DNA from: Helcobacillus massiliensis
GTDB lineage: Bacteria; Actinomycetota; Actinomycetes; Actinomycetales; Dermabacteraceae
Assembly: GCF_014191425.1 (NCBI RefSeq)
Contig: NZ_JACHWP010000007.1
Coordinates: forward strand, 1 to 64,000
Length of the DNA stretch: 64,000 nucleotides
Direction of reading: 5' to 3'
Shown: positions 14,324 through 64,000 of the stretch, piece after piece
Layout: each line of letters starts with the position of its first letter
Numbering within the stretch: position 1 is the first letter of the stretch
The notes under the pieces: generated by a model
The model's input: the letters and a program-made list of their open reading frames with translations, nothing else
Told to the model about the DNA's origin: nothing
Databases searched by the model: none
Program-made: the position numbers and the translations under genes

Positions 14324-15787
14324 TCAGGACTGTGCCGACGCTGCGACAGCCCCCTTGCCCGGATAGATGGTGCCGTCGATGACGGCTTCCTCCACCTGTT
14401 CCAAGGTCCGGCCATGCGTATCAGGCAGGAACTTGGTCATGACCACGACAGCAACGAGGTTGACTGCTGCGAAGCCGATGAACAGCCCTGTGAGACCGAG
14501 CCCCGCGAGGAGTGAAGGGAAGGCGAACGACAGGGCGGCGTTCGACAGCCACATGCACAAGACCGAGAATCCCATGCCGAAGGCGCGGACTTTCAGGGGG
14601 AAGATCTCTGACAGCCACACCCAGGTGGCAACGTTGAGGAAGGTCTGCATGGAACCCACGAAGATGACGATGAGCGTCAGCATGACGAAGGGGCGGATCG
14701 GGTTCTCCGGCGCGATGACGTTGGAGAAGATCGCGATCAAAATGTGGGAAATGGCGACCAAGGTGTAGCCGGTGATGATCGTGATGCGTCGGTTGACCTT
14801 GTCCATCATCCACAGAGCGATGACAGCGCCAACGACGGCGATGATGCCAGGCGCGATGTTGCCGATCAGTGCAGCCTGACGCCCGAAGCCGGATTCGGTC
14901 AGCAGGATCTGGCCGTAGTACATGACTGAATTGATGCCCGTCAGCTGCTGGAAGACTGCAACGGCGATTCCGATCAGGAGGATCTTGACGAACCAACCCT
15001 GCTTGAGGGCGGCGCTAGGAGTCAGCTTGGCGGCCGCGCTTTCTTCATAGCGGAGTGTGCTGGCGATCTCGGCGTGCTCGGCGTCAGCGCGTTCCTTGGA
15101 GCGCAGGGTGGCGAGGATGGCGAGTGCCTCATCGTGGCGTCCCTTTGAGAGGAGCCAGCGCGGAGATTCGGGGACTCGAAGCATGCCGATGAAGAGGGCC
15201 ATCGCCGGAATCGCTGCAACAGCCAGCATGATTCGCCAGACGTGATCGAGGTGGCCGAGCGTGTTGCCCAGGATTGCGTTCACGACAAATGCTGCGAGCT
15301 GACCCGTCACGATCATGAATTCGTTGCGGCCGGCGAGAGCACCGCGGATCTCATAGGGGGCGAGTTCTGCAAGGAAGACGGGGACGACCGTGGATGCGCC
15401 GCCCACGCCGAGACCCAGCATGATGCGGCCGATCAGCAGAATGGTGAGGCCTGGCGTGATGGCGCAGAGAACGGCACCGATGAAGAAGAGGACGGACAGC
15501 CCGATGATGGTGGGGCGTCGGCCGATGGCATCCGAAATGCGTCCGCCGAGGATCGCTCCGGCTGCGGCGCCGAAGAGGAGCGACGATGTCACAGCGCCTT
15601 CGGTGAAGGGAGTCAGGCCGAGCTCCTCGGTCATCGGCAACAGCGCGCCGTTGATGACACCCGTGTCGTAGCCGAAGAGAAGGCCGCCCAAAGTGGCGAT
15701 GATGGCTACCTGACCCAGACGGCGGGAGTGTGGGCCTGGGGTCAGCGGTGGGAGCTTATGCGCCGGCTCTGCTGTCGTGCTTGACAT
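14324..15787 (-). CDS. iolT: Sugar:proton symporter of the MFS, probable inositol transporter
   Basis: A 487-residue, 12-helix permease of the MFS sugar porter group. Family marks are GGLLFGYDTGVINGALL in helix 1, GGRISDAIGRRPTI in the loop after helix 2, PVFLAELAP with EIRGAL, and the motif QQLTGINSVMYYG in helix 7 that binds the sugar. This pattern matches bacterial IolT/XylE-type carriers, and its place inside the inositol cluster makes inositol the likely substrate. The ATG at 15787 is preceded by AAAGGAG. It has its own promoter (TTGACA, 18 bases, GACTAT) and its own terminator, so it is a single-gene unit. Confidence 0.88.
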   Translation of the reverse strand: MSSTTAEPAHKLPPLTPGPHSRRLGQVAIIATLGGLLFGYDTGVINGALLPMTEELGLTPFTEGAVTSSLLFGAAAGAILGGRISDAIGRRPTIIGLSVLFFIGAVLCAITPGLTILLIGRIMLGLGVGGASTVVPVFLAELAPYEIRGALAGRNEFMIVTGQLAAFVVNAILGNTLGHLDHVWRIMLAVAAIPAMALFIGMLRVPESPRWLLSKGRHDEALAILATLRSKERADAEHAEIASTLRYEESAAAKLTPSAALKQGWFVKILLIGIAVAVFQQLTGINSVMYYGQILLTESGFGRQAALIGNIAPGIIAVVGAVIALWMMDKVNRRITIITGYTLVAISHILIAIFSNVIAPENPIRPFVMLTLIVIFVGSMQTFLNVATWVWLSEIFPLKVRAFGMGFSVLCMWLSNAALSFAFPSLLAGLGLTGLFIGFAAVNLVAVVVMTKFLPDTHGRTLEQVEEAVIDGTIYPGKGAVAASAQS

Positions 15788-15828
15788 GCTGGCTCCTTTG
15801 TCAGTACCTAGCAAGCGATTGTGTGAAC

Positions 15829-15858
15829 ATAGTCTGTCATTGATGGCGACTGTGTCAA
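15829..15858 (-). promoter_or_regulatory. Promoter of the inositol transporter gene
   Basis: On the minus strand TTGACA (15853-15858) is separated by 18 bases from GACTAT (15829-15834), upstream of the iolT ATG at 15787. TGACAGACTA overlaps the -10 region and is a weak relative of the operator found elsewhere in the locus. Confidence 0.6.
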
Positions 15859-16123
15859 GGGTCTCGGTGGAGATCGGTCACACCGCTTGTGGGAGGGGAT
15901 GAGTTCTGGGTGAGGGAGGCGGTGGAACCGGGACCTTCATCCCCGGCCGCGATCAGTCGCGGAGCGGGGAACGCCGGTCGTGGCCCGGATGCGGAGTGTT
16001 GTTGGCGTAGCGTTCGCCGCGAAGCTTTGTGATCGCCGCTCAGAGTCGCGATGGCGCACTCAACCGGCGTGACAGCAAGCTGGGTGGCGAATGCCGTGCT
16101 TGATGGGCGCTGCCGCAACAGAA
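15859..16123. other. Intergenic stretch without recognised gene
   Basis: Together with the promoter and terminator on either side this makes a gap of about 390 bases. A 98-codon minus-strand reading frame covers it, but it has no ribosome site, no recognisable domain and an arginine/alanine-rich composition, so I do not call it. Confidence 0.5.
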
Positions 16124-16157
16124 CACGGAGTGGCAGGCAATGACCTGCCACTCCGTG
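16124..16157 (-). terminator. Strong hairpin terminator
   Basis: CACGGAGTGGCAGG at 16124-16137 is fully complementary to CCTGCCACTCCGTG at 16144-16157 with a six-base loop. It lies 18 bases beyond the stop of the minus-strand isomerase gene and is followed on that strand by TTCTGTT. Confidence 0.85.
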
Positions 16158-16175
16158 GATTGAGCTGTTCCGGTC

Positions 16176-17093
16176 TCACCTCAGTGTGATGGCCACGCCC
16201 TGATCCTTGATGTACTGCAGAGTTGCTGCAGCGATCGGCTTCGGGATGTCGAGCGACGGGAGCGGGAACAGGTCCTGCTCCACGATCGCGAAGATGTCCG
16301 GGGTGGTCTTCGCCGCTTCGGCGACGATCGGACCGAACTCGGGGATGCCCTCACCGGCGTTGCACATGATCCCGTCGGCGACGGCCTGCTCGAAGGAGAT
16401 GTCGTTCTTCAGCACATCGGCGAGCAGGTTCGGTTCCACCTGTTTGATGTGGAGGTAGCCGATGCGCTCAGGATGGGCCTGGATCAGGGAGAGGCTGTCG
16501 CCGAGGTAATAGGCGAAGTGCCCCGTGTCCAGGCACAGGTTGGTGAAGCGCGGATCGGTGTTCTCCAGCAGACGGGTCACCTCACCCCACGAGCCGATCT
16601 GTGATTCCGCATGGGAATGGAAGACCTGCTTGACTCCGTATTCCTCGAGGAGGCGCCGTCCCAGTTCGTCGTGGTTCTTCGTGAAGCGAGCCCAGCCGTC
16701 AGCGGAGAAGGCGCGCTCCCCCTGGACGTGGCCCTTGTCGTCGCGCTGCCACATCTCGGGCAGTACGATGAGGTGCTCAGCGCCGACTTCGCGGATTGCC
16801 GATGCGATCTCGGAGACCTCGTCCCAGCATTCGGCAACGGCGTCCTCGGAGCGGTGGAGTGCGGTGAAGACCGTTCCCCCGGAGCAGAGGAGGTTGTGCG
16901 CGTCGAAGTCGTCCTTCAGCTTCTTGGGGTCTGTGCCGAGGAACCCCCACGGTCCGATTTCAGTCCAGCGGTAGCCCACTTCCTGAACCTCGCGCAGGTA
17001 CTGCTCGGCGCTGGGCTGAGAGGGGTGGTCCGCGTGCCAGACACCCCATGAGTCAGGGGCGATGCCGATTCGAGGTGCGGTGTATTCTGTCAT
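16176..17093 (-). CDS. Sugar phosphate isomerase/epimerase (IolE-like TIM barrel)
   Basis: The 305-residue protein belongs to the xylose-isomerase-like/AP endonuclease 2 TIM-barrel family that includes inosose dehydratase (IolE) and inosose isomerase (IolI). Visible pieces are the N-terminal IGIAPDSWGVW, similar to IolE, and the metal-site region with HSHAESQIG, CLDTGHFAY, GYLHIKQVE and the C-terminal IVEQDLFP (Glu ligand). It is downstream of iolE on the same strand, so both may act on inosose isomers. AAGGAG precedes the ATG at 17093. Whether it is a second dehydratase, an epimerase or IolI cannot be decided by sight. Confidence 0.82.
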   Translation of the reverse strand: MTEYTAPRIGIAPDSWGVWHADHPSQPSAEQYLREVQEVGYRWTEIGPWGFLGTDPKKLKDDFDAHNLLCSGGTVFTALHRSEDAVAECWDEVSEIASAIREVGAEHLIVLPEMWQRDDKGHVQGERAFSADGWARFTKNHDELGRRLLEEYGVKQVFHSHAESQIGSWGEVTRLLENTDPRFTNLCLDTGHFAYYLGDSLSLIQAHPERIGYLHIKQVEPNLLADVLKNDISFEQAVADGIMCNAGEGIPEFGPIVAEAAKTTPDIFAIVEQDLFPLPSLDIPKPIAAATLQYIKDQGVAITLR

Positions 17094-60779: not shown

Positions 60780-62201
60780 TCACTGCCCCCGCAGCGCCGC
60801 TGACGCCTCCGCGCCGAGCAGCTCATCCAGCGCCTCGTCCCTGTCCGCGCCCTGGGGCCGGTCGGTGAGGGTGTAGATGAGAGCGCCGAGCAGCGCCCAA
60901 CCGGCGAGGATGATGTGCTCCACCGGCCACTGCAGTGTCAGGCCCGTGCCCGGGATCAGCGAGAACAGGATCACGAGCACTGCACCGACTGCACCGATCG
61001 CCGGCAGGAACGCGGGCCGCGCCCGGTACGTGTACTGCGCGTTCGGGAACCGCCTCGGCAGGCGGTACTTCGCGACCACCACCAGCAGCCACACGATCCC
61101 GAGGAACACGCCGCCCGCATCGAGGAACCAGATGATGGCGCCCGGCCCCAGCAGGCCCAGCACGATCGTGATGACCAGGACGAACAGCAGCGCATTGCGG
61201 GGAACACCGGAGCCGGCGTGCACCTCGGCGAGGGAGCCCGGCAGCATGCGGGCGCGGGCGAGTGCGAGCACCACGCGTGAGGAGGCGACGAACAGGCCGA
61301 TGAAGCTGGTGACCAGGCCCAGCACAGCGATGAGGAACGCGCCGAACCCGAGCAGCGGGAAGCCGGCCGTGGTGAACGCATCGATCGTGCCGAGGTCCAT
61401 CTGGGCGACCTCCTCCCACGGAATCACCGTTGCGGTCGCCAGCAGCACGGTGGTGTAGAACAGCGCCGCGATGCCGACGGTCAGCACCACGGCGCGGCCC
61501 ACGCGGCGCGGCGACAGGCTCGACTCCTCCGCCAGCACCGCCACGAGGGAGAACCCGACCACGTACGTGATGCCGGGGACCACCATCCGCGCAGTCGACG
61601 CCAGCGGCGCCTGGCCCGATGACCACGCCGGCCACAGGTTCGAGGGCGAACCGGCGAACACCGCGGTCACGGCGAGCGCCGCACCGATCAGCAGCATGAT
61701 CACGAACAGCGCCACCTGCAGCTGCGCACCCAGCCCCACCCCGAACCAGTTCAGGGCGAACACGATCAGCGCCAGCGCGATCCCCACCGCCAGCACCGGC
61801 AGGGTGACCGCCTCCCCGTTCACGGAGTACAGCGGCATCGACTCGAACACCGGCAGGTACTTGCTGAGCAGGGTGCCGAACGCGGTGACGTAGAAGGACA
61901 GGGACGCGATGTACGCGCCGATGTGGAACCAGCCGGTGGCGAAGCCCGCGCGGTACCCGAGGGCGGCGGTGGACCACACCACTTCGCCGCCGGCGCGGGG
62001 GATCACGCTGGTCAGCTCACCGTAGGCGAGGGCCACGCAGGCGGCGAGCGCGGCGCCGACCAGCAGGCCGAGGATCATGCCGCCGGCGCCGACGTCGGCG
62101 AAGAACGTGGAGGACGTGTAGATCCAGCTGGACCCGACCACGCCCGCCACGCCGAGCGCGATCAGGGACGGCAGGCCGAGGGTCTTCTTCATCGAGGACA
62201 C
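60780..62201 (-). CDS. APC-superfamily amino acid permease
   Basis: The 473-residue, 12-helix permease has the APC helix-1 motif GLPSLIALGVAGVVGSSWIY, LAYGELTSVIPRAGG in helix 3, and LGLVTSFIGLFVASSRVVLALAR later. Amino acid or polyamine uptake is likely; the exact substrate is unknown. I take the GTG at 62201 because AAGGAG is seven bases upstream, while the ATG at 62192 is too far from it. Confidence 0.82.
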   Translation of the reverse strand: MSSMKKTLGLPSLIALGVAGVVGSSWIYTSSTFFADVGAGGMILGLLVGAALAACVALAYGELTSVIPRAGGEVVWSTAALGYRAGFATGWFHIGAYIASLSFYVTAFGTLLSKYLPVFESMPLYSVNGEAVTLPVLAVGIALALIVFALNWFGVGLGAQLQVALFVIMLLIGAALAVTAVFAGSPSNLWPAWSSGQAPLASTARMVVPGITYVVGFSLVAVLAEESSLSPRRVGRAVVLTVGIAALFYTTVLLATATVIPWEEVAQMDLGTIDAFTTAGFPLLGFGAFLIAVLGLVTSFIGLFVASSRVVLALARARMLPGSLAEVHAGSGVPRNALLFVLVITIVLGLLGPGAIIWFLDAGGVFLGIVWLLVVVAKYRLPRRFPNAQYTYRARPAFLPAIGAVGAVLVILFSLIPGTGLTLQWPVEHIILAGWALLGALIYTLTDRPQGADRDEALDELLGAEASAALRGQ

Positions 62202-62385
62202 GGGGAGACTCCTTCGCGGGGCGGGGGGGGGAGGCCGACGAATGCTGTCGTCAGCCGGCGCAGCCACGCGGGAAGGAGACCCACGTCACTGCAGGGATGG
62301 GGCCCATTGTGCCAGCACACGGTCGTTCGGGGGTGCCGGTCTGACAGTGATGTCGGTTGCCGACGCGGTTGGAACCGGCCGCTCG

Positions 62386-64000
62386 TCAGACCGAGTCGTT
62401 GCCTCTGTCCGTGCGGTGCTTACGGAACACATCGTCCCGGAGCGATGAGGGCAGAGAAATCGCTCGTGAAGTCGTCGAAACGGCGGTGCGTGCTGCCTCT
62501 TCTGGGTCCTTGTGCCGCATGAATTCGGTGAGGAACACGGCGTTGAACGCATCCCCCGCGCCGACGGTGTCCACCGGACTGACTCTGGGAGCAGGAACCG
62601 ACGTGACGCGTCGCTGTCCTCTCGGCCCCGACTGAACCAACGCGCCCTGCTCTCCCATCTTCGTGATGACCATGGGGTGAGCGTCGGCGAAACGATCCAG
62701 GGCATCACGAGCCGTCGCCGCACCGGTGAGACCGAGGACTTCGGATTCATTGGGCAACAGGATGTCGAGGTGGGGGAAGACGTGTTCGAACAGGCCTACA
62801 CGATGCCTCTCCGACCATCCACCAGCCGGATGGCCCATGTCCAGCGCCGTAATGGCCCCGAGCTGCTGAGCTCGCTCGAGCAACGCAGCCAGCCGCTTCC
62901 CCTGGAGGTGAGGCAGGAGGAAATAGCCGCTGAGGAGAAGGCAACCGGCGCTGAGAGCCTGATCGTCGACGTCTTCAGGACCGAACTCCGCGAGGGCACC
63001 GAGCGACGAGATGAACGACCGATCCCGATGTGCTGCTTCGGCGGCAACAGTGATGGGGGTGCAGCCATTCACAGTGACGAGGTTGAGCTCCAGTCCCTCC
63101 TCCTGCGCCAAGCCACGAAGCAGATCAGCACCTGGATCAGAACCGACGGGAGCTGTGAGCGTTGTGGGCACGCCGAGCTGAGCTGAACGCAGCGCCGTGT
63201 TGGCGGCGGACCCGCCGATCCTCAGGTCGATCTCCGGGACGACCTCTTCCTCTCCGGGGGCCGGAAAATCAGCGCGACCATGAATCACCACGTCAGGGTT
63301 CAGATTGCCGATAACGCTGATCCGAGTCCGTGGAGCTCGTCCTCCGCGCTCGCGCGCAAGGGTCATCAAGTCGCATCGGGCATCATCAATGTGCTGGCGC
63401 CGATCCCCGAATGACTGCTGAATCTCCCGGCAACGCTGACGCACGCCGTTGATGGTCCGCTTCTGTGCGGCTTCGCCAGGGCTGCCGTCCTGGTCCCGGG
63501 CAAGGATCTTCTCTGGTTCATTGCCCGAGGACATCACAATGGATGCGAGCGTGCCGTCCGAGTCCTCAATGCTCGCGCTCCGCAGGGCGGCCTCCACTTG
63601 TTGAGAGTGCCAGGTCGCGGGTTCACCGGCGCGGAAGAGGGAGCCGACTACGTCATGGGCTGCTCGCCATGGGACACCGTGGACTGCAAGGGCTTCGGCC
63701 ACTGCCGTCGTCGTGGCGCCGGAGGAGACGATCTGTGCGCTGGACGGGAGTCGAAGCGGTCTGATCTCGCGGACGACACCGGCGAACAGGCGAAGGAACC
63801 TGACTGTCCGTTCCACTGATGCCCACAGGTGCTTCTGCACATCAGTGGTGGCGTTGTTCGAGTCTTCGTACCATCCCGCGGCGATGGCCGAATAGACACT
63901 CACCAGGTCGCCGTTCGCGGCGCCGGCCATCGACACCATGTGCTCCAGCACGACAGGATTCTGCTTCTGCGGCATGATCGAGGAGCCCTGACTGAAGCTC
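62386..64000 (-). CDS. Argininosuccinate-lyase-like domain fused to a PfkB kinase (5' end outside window)
   Basis: The frame is open through the right edge. The visible N-terminal part is the C-terminal half of a fumarase/aspartase-superfamily lyase: GSSIMPQKQNP at about 63960-63990 is the superfamily signature, and VPWRAAHDVVG plus the SPG segment near the end match argininosuccinate lyase. About residue 215 onward a PfkB kinase begins (ISVIGNLNPDVVIHG), with the sugar-side glycines in GGSAANTALRSAQLG and the anion hole with catalytic Asp in DTVGAGDAFNAVFLTEF. No stop or start lies between the halves except a weak internal ATG. The substrate pair is unknown. Codon use is less GC-rich than that of the APC gene. 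Confidence 0.78.
   Translation of the reverse strand, partial: SFSQGSSIMPQKQNPVVLEHMVSMAGAANGDLVSVYSAIAAGWYEDSNNATTDVQKHLWASVERTVRFLRLFAGVVREIRPLRLPSSAQIVSSGATTTAVAEALAVHGVPWRAAHDVVGSLFRAGEPATWHSQQVEAALRSASIEDSDGTLASIVMSSGNEPEKILARDQDGSPGEAAQKRTINGVRQRCREIQQSFGDRRQHIDDARCDLMTLARERGGRAPRTRISVIGNLNPDVVIHGRADFPAPGEEEVVPEIDLRIGGSAANTALRSAQLGVPTTLTAPVGSDPGADLLRGLAQEEGLELNLVTVNGCTPITVAAEAAHRDRSFISSLGALAEFGPEDVDDQALSAGCLLLSGYFLLPHLQGKRLAALLERAQQLGAITALDMGHPAGGWSERHRVGLFEHVFPHLDILLPNESEVLGLTGAATARDALDRFADAHPMVITKMGEQGALVQSGPRGQRRVTSVPAPRVSPVDTVGAGDAFNAVFLTEFMRHKDPEEAARTAVSTTSRAISLPSSLRDDVFRKHRTDRGNDSV

Follow-up and report, generated by a model that had tools for sequence, protein, structure and literature searches.

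A lyase–PfkB kinase fusion of Helcobacillus massiliensis, last gene of a conserved uptake cassette, as a candidate enzyme for the breakdown of an amino-sugar conjugate

The stretch of Helcobacillus massiliensis DNA analysed here (the window: bases 1-64000 of contig NZ_JACHWP010000007.1, which comprises 75,989 bases of a 2.6 Mb genome) ends inside a gene that joins a lyase to a PfkB sugar kinase, and the question raised by this locus is what such a double enzyme would act on. A sequence-only reading of the window had noted that the two domains lie in one continuous frame, had inferred that the protein may cleave an amino-acid- or dicarboxylate-linked sugar and then phosphorylate the sugar, and knew of no described enzyme with this domain order. 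The gene, its relatives and their neighbourhoods suggest, with an even chance in our judgement, a two-step catabolic enzyme that would split an amino-sugar conjugate into fumarate and the amino sugar and then phosphorylate the latter, within an uptake cassette.

In the window, the gene appears as a single open minus-strand frame that enters at the right edge (64000) and ends with a stop codon at 62386-62388. Extension of the sequence to the right, as the sequence-only reading had proposed, supplied the N-terminus of the lyase; the full gene occupies contig 62386-64857 (minus strand) and encodes 823 amino acids from a GTG start, upstream of which stands GAAAGG, with zero internal stops. Pfam, an AlphaFold2 model and structure matches divide the protein into a lyase domain of the argininosuccinate-lyase type (residues ~1-505) and a complete PfkB/ribokinase-type kinase domain (residues ~512-805, 62443..63324); the in-window part of the gene (62386..64000) holds residues ~287-505 of the lyase (63343..64000) and the entire kinase, all on the minus strand. 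The remaining N-terminal part of the lyase, in which alignment located the motifs ARSRNDLD and GHTHRRPAQP, is encoded on the same strand at contig 64001-64857, outside the window. The Pfam model Lyase_1 scored 90 bits against a cut-off of 27 (residues 118-314), ASL_C2 stayed below threshold (24.2 against 27.3, residues 381-412) and PfkB (PF00294) reached 134.7 bits against 25.8 over residues 511-800, covering profile positions 2-290 of 302. The lyase thus belongs to the fumarase/aspartase superfamily, whose catalytic signature, the SS-loop (GSSIMPQKQN, residues 291-300, 63958..63987, minus strand), keeps the catalytic Ser, Lys and Asn, and the kinase is a full-length member of the PfkB family with its GAGD motif (residues 766-769, 62551..62562, minus strand), both motifs being placed by alignment. 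Among the nine aligned fused proteins, GSSIMPQKQNP (291-301) and GAGD are invariant save for residue 299, which is Q or K. The AlphaFold2 model, built on a 20-sequence alignment, had a mean predicted local distance difference test score (pLDDT) of 84.7 and a predicted template modelling score of 0.61, with pLDDT below 50 in the loops 120-124, 215-219 and 243-246; solved structures matched across both domains, and in the model a long helix (462-505) connects the lyase to the kinase.

The continuous frame was thus confirmed, with both Pfam domains above their cut-offs in one uninterrupted gene. No stop or frameshift separates the domains, and an assembly artefact was rejected because the same fusion recurs in nine other genomes of other species, at 55-62% identity. 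The suggestion that an internal ATG might give a separate kinase was not borne out and was rejected: inspection by eye showed nothing resembling a Shine-Dalgarno sequence ahead of codon 498, the sole ATG near the domain border, and no conserved start occurs at this position among the aligned fused proteins. The ten fused genomes, each of a different species, comprise that of the window, two further genomes of its family (G027 and G028) and seven from a contig scan, namely Brachybacterium paraconglomeratum, B. massiliense, Candidatus B. merdavium (cut by the contig end), Tessaracoccus, a Propionibacteriaceae metagenome-assembled genome, Galactobacter and Actinotalea; within the window organism's family the fusion was present in 6/47 genomes, its own included. 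The scan returned 42 loci, 18 of them with strong matches over the lyase: the seven fused ones and 11 in Arthrobacter and Cryobacterium, where lyase and kinase are adjacent genes or an intact kinase frame is missing. All six split loci inspected show an overlap of 4 or 7 bases (e.g., ATGA) between the lyase stop and the kinase start, and the simple history is therefore that the fusion arose from a translationally coupled gene pair. In one of the 11 loci (L034, Arthrobacter sp. AQ5-06), the tblastn match extends to query residue 569, and no intact kinase frame was found behind the lyase. PfkB relatives of the kinase half with 38% identity, unjoined to a lyase in the match, were also seen in other families of the order (G092:C193:8847-9704 and G050:C2:697346-698149).

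For comparison, 52 cassette loci were assembled: that of the window, 18 from Actinobacteria, 11 from whole genomes of Alphaproteobacteria and 22 from plasmids, the latter chosen among 306 plasmid records with a match. Pfam and NCBIfam similarity and existing annotation would make their lyases second argininosuccinate lyases (ArgH). Most annotated alphaproteobacterial cassette lyases are named argH or argininosuccinate lyase (for example on plasmids at L069:11956-13467, L073:7950-9464 and L092:8989-10488), because, of the 11 in the class sample, eight exceed the TIGR00838 cut-off of 279.5 bits, at 279.6-314. The window lyase, however, reached 190.7 bits in the genome search and 188.8 in hmmscan. 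Where the organism's own ArgH (571 bits) has the segment AYNRDLQEDK after the SS-loop, the window lyase has EDSNNATTDVQK; in ArgH this segment has a role in binding the arginine side. In addition, a separate ArgH at 566-610 bits occurs in 19/19 cassette genomes searched (18 distinct, the places in G033 being those in G103; no Deinococcus among them), and the ArgH of ten relatives scored 552-600. The low score, the replaced Y-N-R-D-L-Q segment and the separate high-scoring ArgH in each searched genome led us to reject a second ArgH, which we regard as extremely improbable.

Residues of the lyase were mapped to those of EDDS lyase (Chelativorans sp. BNC1) by sequence alignment, with the numbering counted by hand and in agreement with the named D290M/Y320M variant. 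R112, N113, T158, S280, K286 and N288 of EDDS lyase correspond to R126, N127, T172, S292, K298 and N300 here and are identical in 37/37 cassette lyases and 11/11 ArgH; S293 is also kept in all 37. According to the excerpted text of PMC12363623, Q159, D290 and Y320 sit 4-6 Å from the substrate in the EDDS complex. Their counterparts in the fusion are H173, V302 and D332, and of the EDDS-lyase contact set R112, N113 and N288 are kept. At positions 302 and 332, every one of the 37 cassette lyases has V and D, the 11 ArgH have D and Y, and three other relatives have G, A or S and D, E or H; alignment assigns D332, a position of the leaving-group pocket, to 63862..63864 (minus strand). Eleven columns are alike (≥85% each) in the actinobacterial, alphaproteobacterial and Deinococcus cassette lyases and differ from ArgH, which has a gap in one of them; they include Q290, V302, H306, D332 and N334. 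The conserved fumarate-side residues, together with the shared changes in the pocket, suggest that the dicarboxylate side looks kept and that the leaving-group side looks altered in the same way in three phyla.

The phylogenetic analysis was in line with this separation. The alignment and tree held 51 rows, i.e., 8 fused, 7/11 split, 17/28 alphaproteobacterial, 5 Deinococcus and 3 other lyases and 11 ArgH (10 of 14 fetched from relatives and the organism's own); not included were the split lyases L034, L038, L039 and L042, G028 (fused) and L030 (cut by a contig end). Cassette lyases grouped apart from ArgH and the three other relatives with support of 97/92, and the eight fused ones formed one group (98/100) inside a fused-plus-split group (100/100). 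The relatives from Haladaptatus, Geminicoccaceae and Agrobacterium vitis (L075, L072 and L078), on the ArgH side of the tree, have no PIG-L, ROK or PfkB gene in the fetched stretch and, having no cassette, do not count among the 52 loci.

Genomic context analyses revealed that the fusion is the last gene of an operon lying otherwise outside the window. In the order of transcription (minus strand), it is preceded by a ROK-family protein taken as the regulator (386 amino acids, contig 68893-70053), a solute-binding protein (355 amino acids, contig 67752-68819), an ATP-binding cassette (ABC) ATPase (363 amino acids, contig 66620-67711) and a double ABC permease (565 amino acids, contig 64926-66623). 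Divergent from this operon, on the plus strand and also outside the window, stands a PIG-L deacetylase gene with a CBM9-like part: the PIG-L frame encodes 309 amino acids with an N-terminus that by eye resembles a twin-arginine translocation signal (contig 70210-71139), and the CBM9-like C-terminal part follows in a shifted frame (contig 71082-73001). The break, a single one in this genome, lies near contig 71079-71094 (L006:13080-13095), and in seven fused relatives the PIG-L/CBM9 protein is encoded in one frame of 914-1032 amino acids. Judged by eye, the PIG-L N-terminus is signal-like in the Actinobacteria inspected, and no such signal was seen in two Alphaproteobacteria inspected. The top solved match of the window solute-binding protein is a pyridoxal-5-phosphate binding protein, followed by 4r72, which we take to be AfuA, a transporter of phosphorylated sugars (PMC4546632); the window protein is of the iron/pyridoxal-phosphate type, while the Thalassospira binding protein is of the sugar type. 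As the type differs between the two, the solute-binding proteins do not reveal the substrate. Directly downstream of the fusion, on the same strand, is an AA_permease_2 amino-acid permease gene (window 60780-62267), and in the six fused relatives with sequence past the fusion, no gene resembling it was found.

The same gene set, with a CUT1-type sugar transporter and with lyase and PfkB as separate genes, is carried on plasmids of Thalassospira, Agrobacterium, Aminobacter, Roseinatronobacter, Rhizobium, Neorhizobium, Qingshengfaniella, Parasedimentitalea and Pseudorhodobacter. In the alphaproteobacterial sample, at least 11 of 385 genomes had a lyase match at E ≤1e-90, with at most four candidates scored per genome; PIG-L was present in eight of these 11 loci and PfkB in two, several of the loci being on short contigs. 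Three Deinococcus plasmids hold a rearranged cassette without an ATPase gene, and two further ones the lyase, binding protein and permeases only. In Bosea and Shinella the lyase and transporter are accompanied by a LacI-type regulator (scanned in Shinella) but by no PIG-L or kinase gene, and a Terrarubrum plasmid has the cassette lyase and transporter only. On that plasmid (L077:11718-16101) the pair adjoins genes for an NrtR-like regulator, nadA, L-aspartate oxidase and nadC. Two Deinococcus loci contain two PIG-L genes each, one large and one small (L074:9506-11734 and 14814-15659; L129:10353-12476 and 15633-16463), and in L074 the large one carries CBM9 and the small one is MshB-like. In Paroceanicella, a GH9 protein occupies the place of PIG-L.

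The genes that accompany the lyase point to an amino sugar. Glucosamine-6-phosphate deaminase was found in 11/52 cassette loci (9 NagB-I, 2 NagB-II) and PIG-L in 31/52, against 0/24 for both in control loci (L045-L068) that had been fetched by similarity to the kinase half and have no cassette, a weak control since these are few and of other lineages. PfkB was present in 34/52 cassette loci and in 12/24 of these kinase-selected controls; throughout this comparison, part of the reference proteins had been taken from cassette loci, and contig ends cause some misses. NagB lies downstream of the kinase in seven Arthrobacter loci (the one scored, L037, gave 209 bits against the TIGR00502 cut-off of 236.9), after the ROK-family gene in Paroceanicella (242 bits) and beyond PIG-L in Loktanella (251 bits), the last two above the cut-off, and NagB-II, for which the cut-off is 430, stands after a ROK-family kinase in Roseomonas (313 bits) and next to the binding protein in G329 (311 bits). 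A muramic-acid etherase route was rejected for the Roseomonas protein, which scored 21.5 bits with the etherase model as compared with 313 for NagB-II. Near the G329 deaminase, beyond a murA gene, is a relative of BadF-type N-acetylglucosamine kinases (247 bits against 370). A ROK-family protein takes the place of the kinase in Loktanella, Paroceanicella, Roseomonas and G267, and the Loktanella locus holds the whole predicted route, i.e., NagB, PIG-L, ROK regulator, transporter, lyase and ROK-family kinase. The window genome has a NagB elsewhere (260.5 bits, above the cut-off), and a search of four cassette genomes with the nagB model put two, Actinotalea (274 bits) and B. paraconglomeratum (265 bits), above it as well. 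Solved structures matched by the B. paraconglomeratum PIG-L domain include LnmX (5bmo) and, with weak matches, 3wl4 and 3we7 (PH0499), the latter two of which we take to be diacetylchitobiose deacetylases. The LmbE/PIG-L enzymes treated in the excerpted part of the review PMC4101496 act on N-acetyl- or N-acylglucosamine cores. The general idea of the sequence-only reading, a dicarboxylate-linked sugar that is cleaved and then phosphorylated, fits this gene context, which goes further, to an amino sugar, since PIG-L deacetylases, ROK-family proteins and NagB-I or NagB-II deaminases co-occur; the bond cut may be C-N, as that reading proposed, or C-O.

A route can be drawn from these genes in which each reaction is a prediction. 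The PIG-L deacylase would remove the N-acyl group from a hexosamine-C4 dicarboxylate conjugate, either before or after import, and the ABC system would import the conjugate under ROK control. The lyase domain would then take a proton from the C4-dicarboxylate part and expel the amino sugar, so that fumarate and glucosamine are formed. Glucosamine would be phosphorylated to glucosamine-6-phosphate by the fused PfkB domain, and a deaminase of the NagB type, encoded either within the cassette or at another place in the genome, would convert this to fructose-6-phosphate and ammonia for entry into glycolysis. One chain would position lyase and kinase for the direct capture of free glucosamine, although channelling is speculation only. 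Our best single guess at the substrate, a tentative one, is glucosaminyl-malate, the backbone of bacillithiol, because it would explain the PIG-L protein, the elimination from a C4 acid and a binding protein nearest to acidic-ligand proteins. The cassette might then serve the salvage of the bacillithiol backbone, with PIG-L freeing glucosaminyl-malate, the lyase splitting its C-O bond and PfkB acting as a new type of glucosamine kinase, a possibility that we hold to be less than even by a clear measure. BshC was absent from all 19 cassette genomes examined (18 distinct), which is consistent with scavenging but also with any other substrate.

Several observations weigh against a two-step route of this kind. 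The prediction of fumarate as the product comes from conserved residues only, the Haladaptatus relative has Asp at the position of D332 as well although it lacks the cassette, and long branches meet at the cassette group, for which the tree program issued a warning. The transporter type varies between lineages, and the Deinococcus loci show no ATPase gene. In ten Arthrobacter and Cryobacterium loci (L035-L044, i.e., 10/11 split loci, L034 excepted) PIG-L was not found, and an Amidohydro_2 protein is encoded behind the kinase instead (e.g., L037:12444-13487); the nearest solved relatives of this protein are decarboxylases, which speaks against a uniform deacylation step. The remaining 41/52 cassette loci, that of the window included, have no deaminase in the fetched DNA, some of them being cut by contig ends. 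Moreover, the nagB matches in Arthrobacter koreensis (L037) scored 215 and 208 bits, both below the cut-off, and the best one in Cryobacterium MLB-32 (L041) only 27 bits, which argues against a universal NagB-I step; NagB-II was not sought in either genome. In L118-L120 a cassette-type lyase is divergent from PIG-L without sugar ABC genes or a kinase. Finally, we know of no PfkB protein that acts as a glucosamine kinase. As a further observation on these loci, an SBP_bac_5 binding protein lies beside the lyase in L118 (scanned) and a similar-looking one in L119.

Other arrangements of the same parts were weighed against the two-step route. The lyase may cut a C-N bond; the substrate would then be the Heyns product of fructose and aspartate, in which glucosamine is N-linked to succinate, and the products would again be fumarate and glucosamine. 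EDDS lyase and ArgH, the solved proteins nearest to this lyase, cleave C-N bonds, and a glucosamine product would be just as suitable for the kinase and deaminase; the PIG-L N-acyl hydrolase, found in 31 of the loci, would, however, be left without a job, because the nitrogen is already substituted. The Heyns compound explains the lyase chemistry better than glucosaminyl-malate does, but not PIG-L, and we consider this substrate unlikely.

The order of the two reactions might also be reversed, by analogy with fructoselysine, which is handled by a 6-kinase and then a deglycase: the kinase would act on the intact conjugate and the lyase would split the 6-phosphorylated form. A fusion permits either order, and the kinase weakly matches fructoselysine 6-kinase (46 bits against a cut-off of 247). 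Against this, the two SIS proteins of Roseomonas and G329 score much higher with NagB-II than with the fructoselysine deglycase model (27 and 26 bits), a comparison on which a fructoselysine or fructose-asparagine deglycase route was rejected. In Roseomonas, Loktanella and G267 the kinase is replaced by a ROK-family protein that resembles kinases of hexoses and hexosamines, with no score reaching a curated cut-off, which points to a free sugar. A kinase-first order accordingly appears improbable to us. We give a similarly low standing to separate pathways, in which the domains would have been joined by operon read-through and the lyase would act on a conjugate of a hydroxy acid or of an amine other than an amino sugar. 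The lyase does occur with PIG-L and without a kinase in L118-L120, and with a binding protein and permeases alone on two Deinococcus plasmids; lyase and PfkB nevertheless stand together in three phyla and in varied gene orders, and are fused in ten genomes, with both motifs conserved in the nine aligned.

The two-step route for an amino-sugar conjugate would matter in several respects. It concerns a lyase group of three bacterial phyla that is often labelled argininosuccinate lyase, although the searched actinobacterial and alphaproteobacterial cassette genomes each carry a separate ArgH. The fusion, its split homologues and the co-located NagB give a specific, testable prediction, namely a so far unrecorded means of releasing an amino sugar from a C4 acid. 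If glucosaminyl-malate were the substrate, the route would help to explain the fate of bacillithiol from dead cells, and the fusion would provide two firsts as far as is known, an enzyme that cleaves the sugar-malate bond of bacillithiol and a glucosamine kinase of the PfkB family, neither of which was among the matches listed.

In the open-access literature, with most subscription journals outside the scope of the search, no described enzyme with the lyase-PfkB architecture was found among the matches listed, in line with the sequence-only reading, nor any paper combining even three of PIG-L, argininosuccinate lyase, the ROK family and PfkB, nor a malate-releasing bacillithiol route. The protein combines known folds in a new order, inside a catabolic cassette for which no description was found. 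With ArgH it shares the fold (model Z 32-38 to ArgH/delta-crystallin, root-mean-square deviation (rmsd) 2.8-3.7 over 421-438 residues), the SS-loop and the R-N and T-H motifs, and it differs in V302 for Asp, D332 for Tyr and N334 for Arg, as well as in its TIGR00838 score, in the fused kinase and in standing beside a separate ArgH. EDDS lyase was the top Foldseek match (E 1.4e-21) and the second-ranked PDB sequence match, and the lyase part aligned to it with Z 36-37 over 450-454 residues (rmsd 3.0-3.1); the three kept contacts are common to both, whereas H173, V302 and D332 set the fusion apart. The nearest solved PfkB protein, Escherichia coli YdjH (3h49), matched the kinase over its full fold (Z 34.5, rmsd 2.6, 299 residues) and has GAGD, but identity was only 25%, and none of the NCBIfam kinase models listed reached its cut-off.

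In bacillithiol metabolism (BshA/BshB/BshC, Bca), PIG-L enzymes act on N-acetylglucosamine-malate or on bacillithiol conjugates, according to the excerpted parts of PMC4101496 and PMC4360819. The known enzymes build or recycle glucosaminyl-malate, and none that splits it was among the open-access matches listed. Archaeal chitin catabolism includes a PIG-L diacetylchitobiose deacetylase, a glycosidase, a glucosamine kinase step and a glucosamine-6-phosphate deaminase step, and in the cassette the lyase holds the place of that glycosidase. The logic of PIG-L deacylation, kinase and deaminase is shared between the two systems; the PIG-L step of the archaeal one (TkDAC) is described in PMC4101496.

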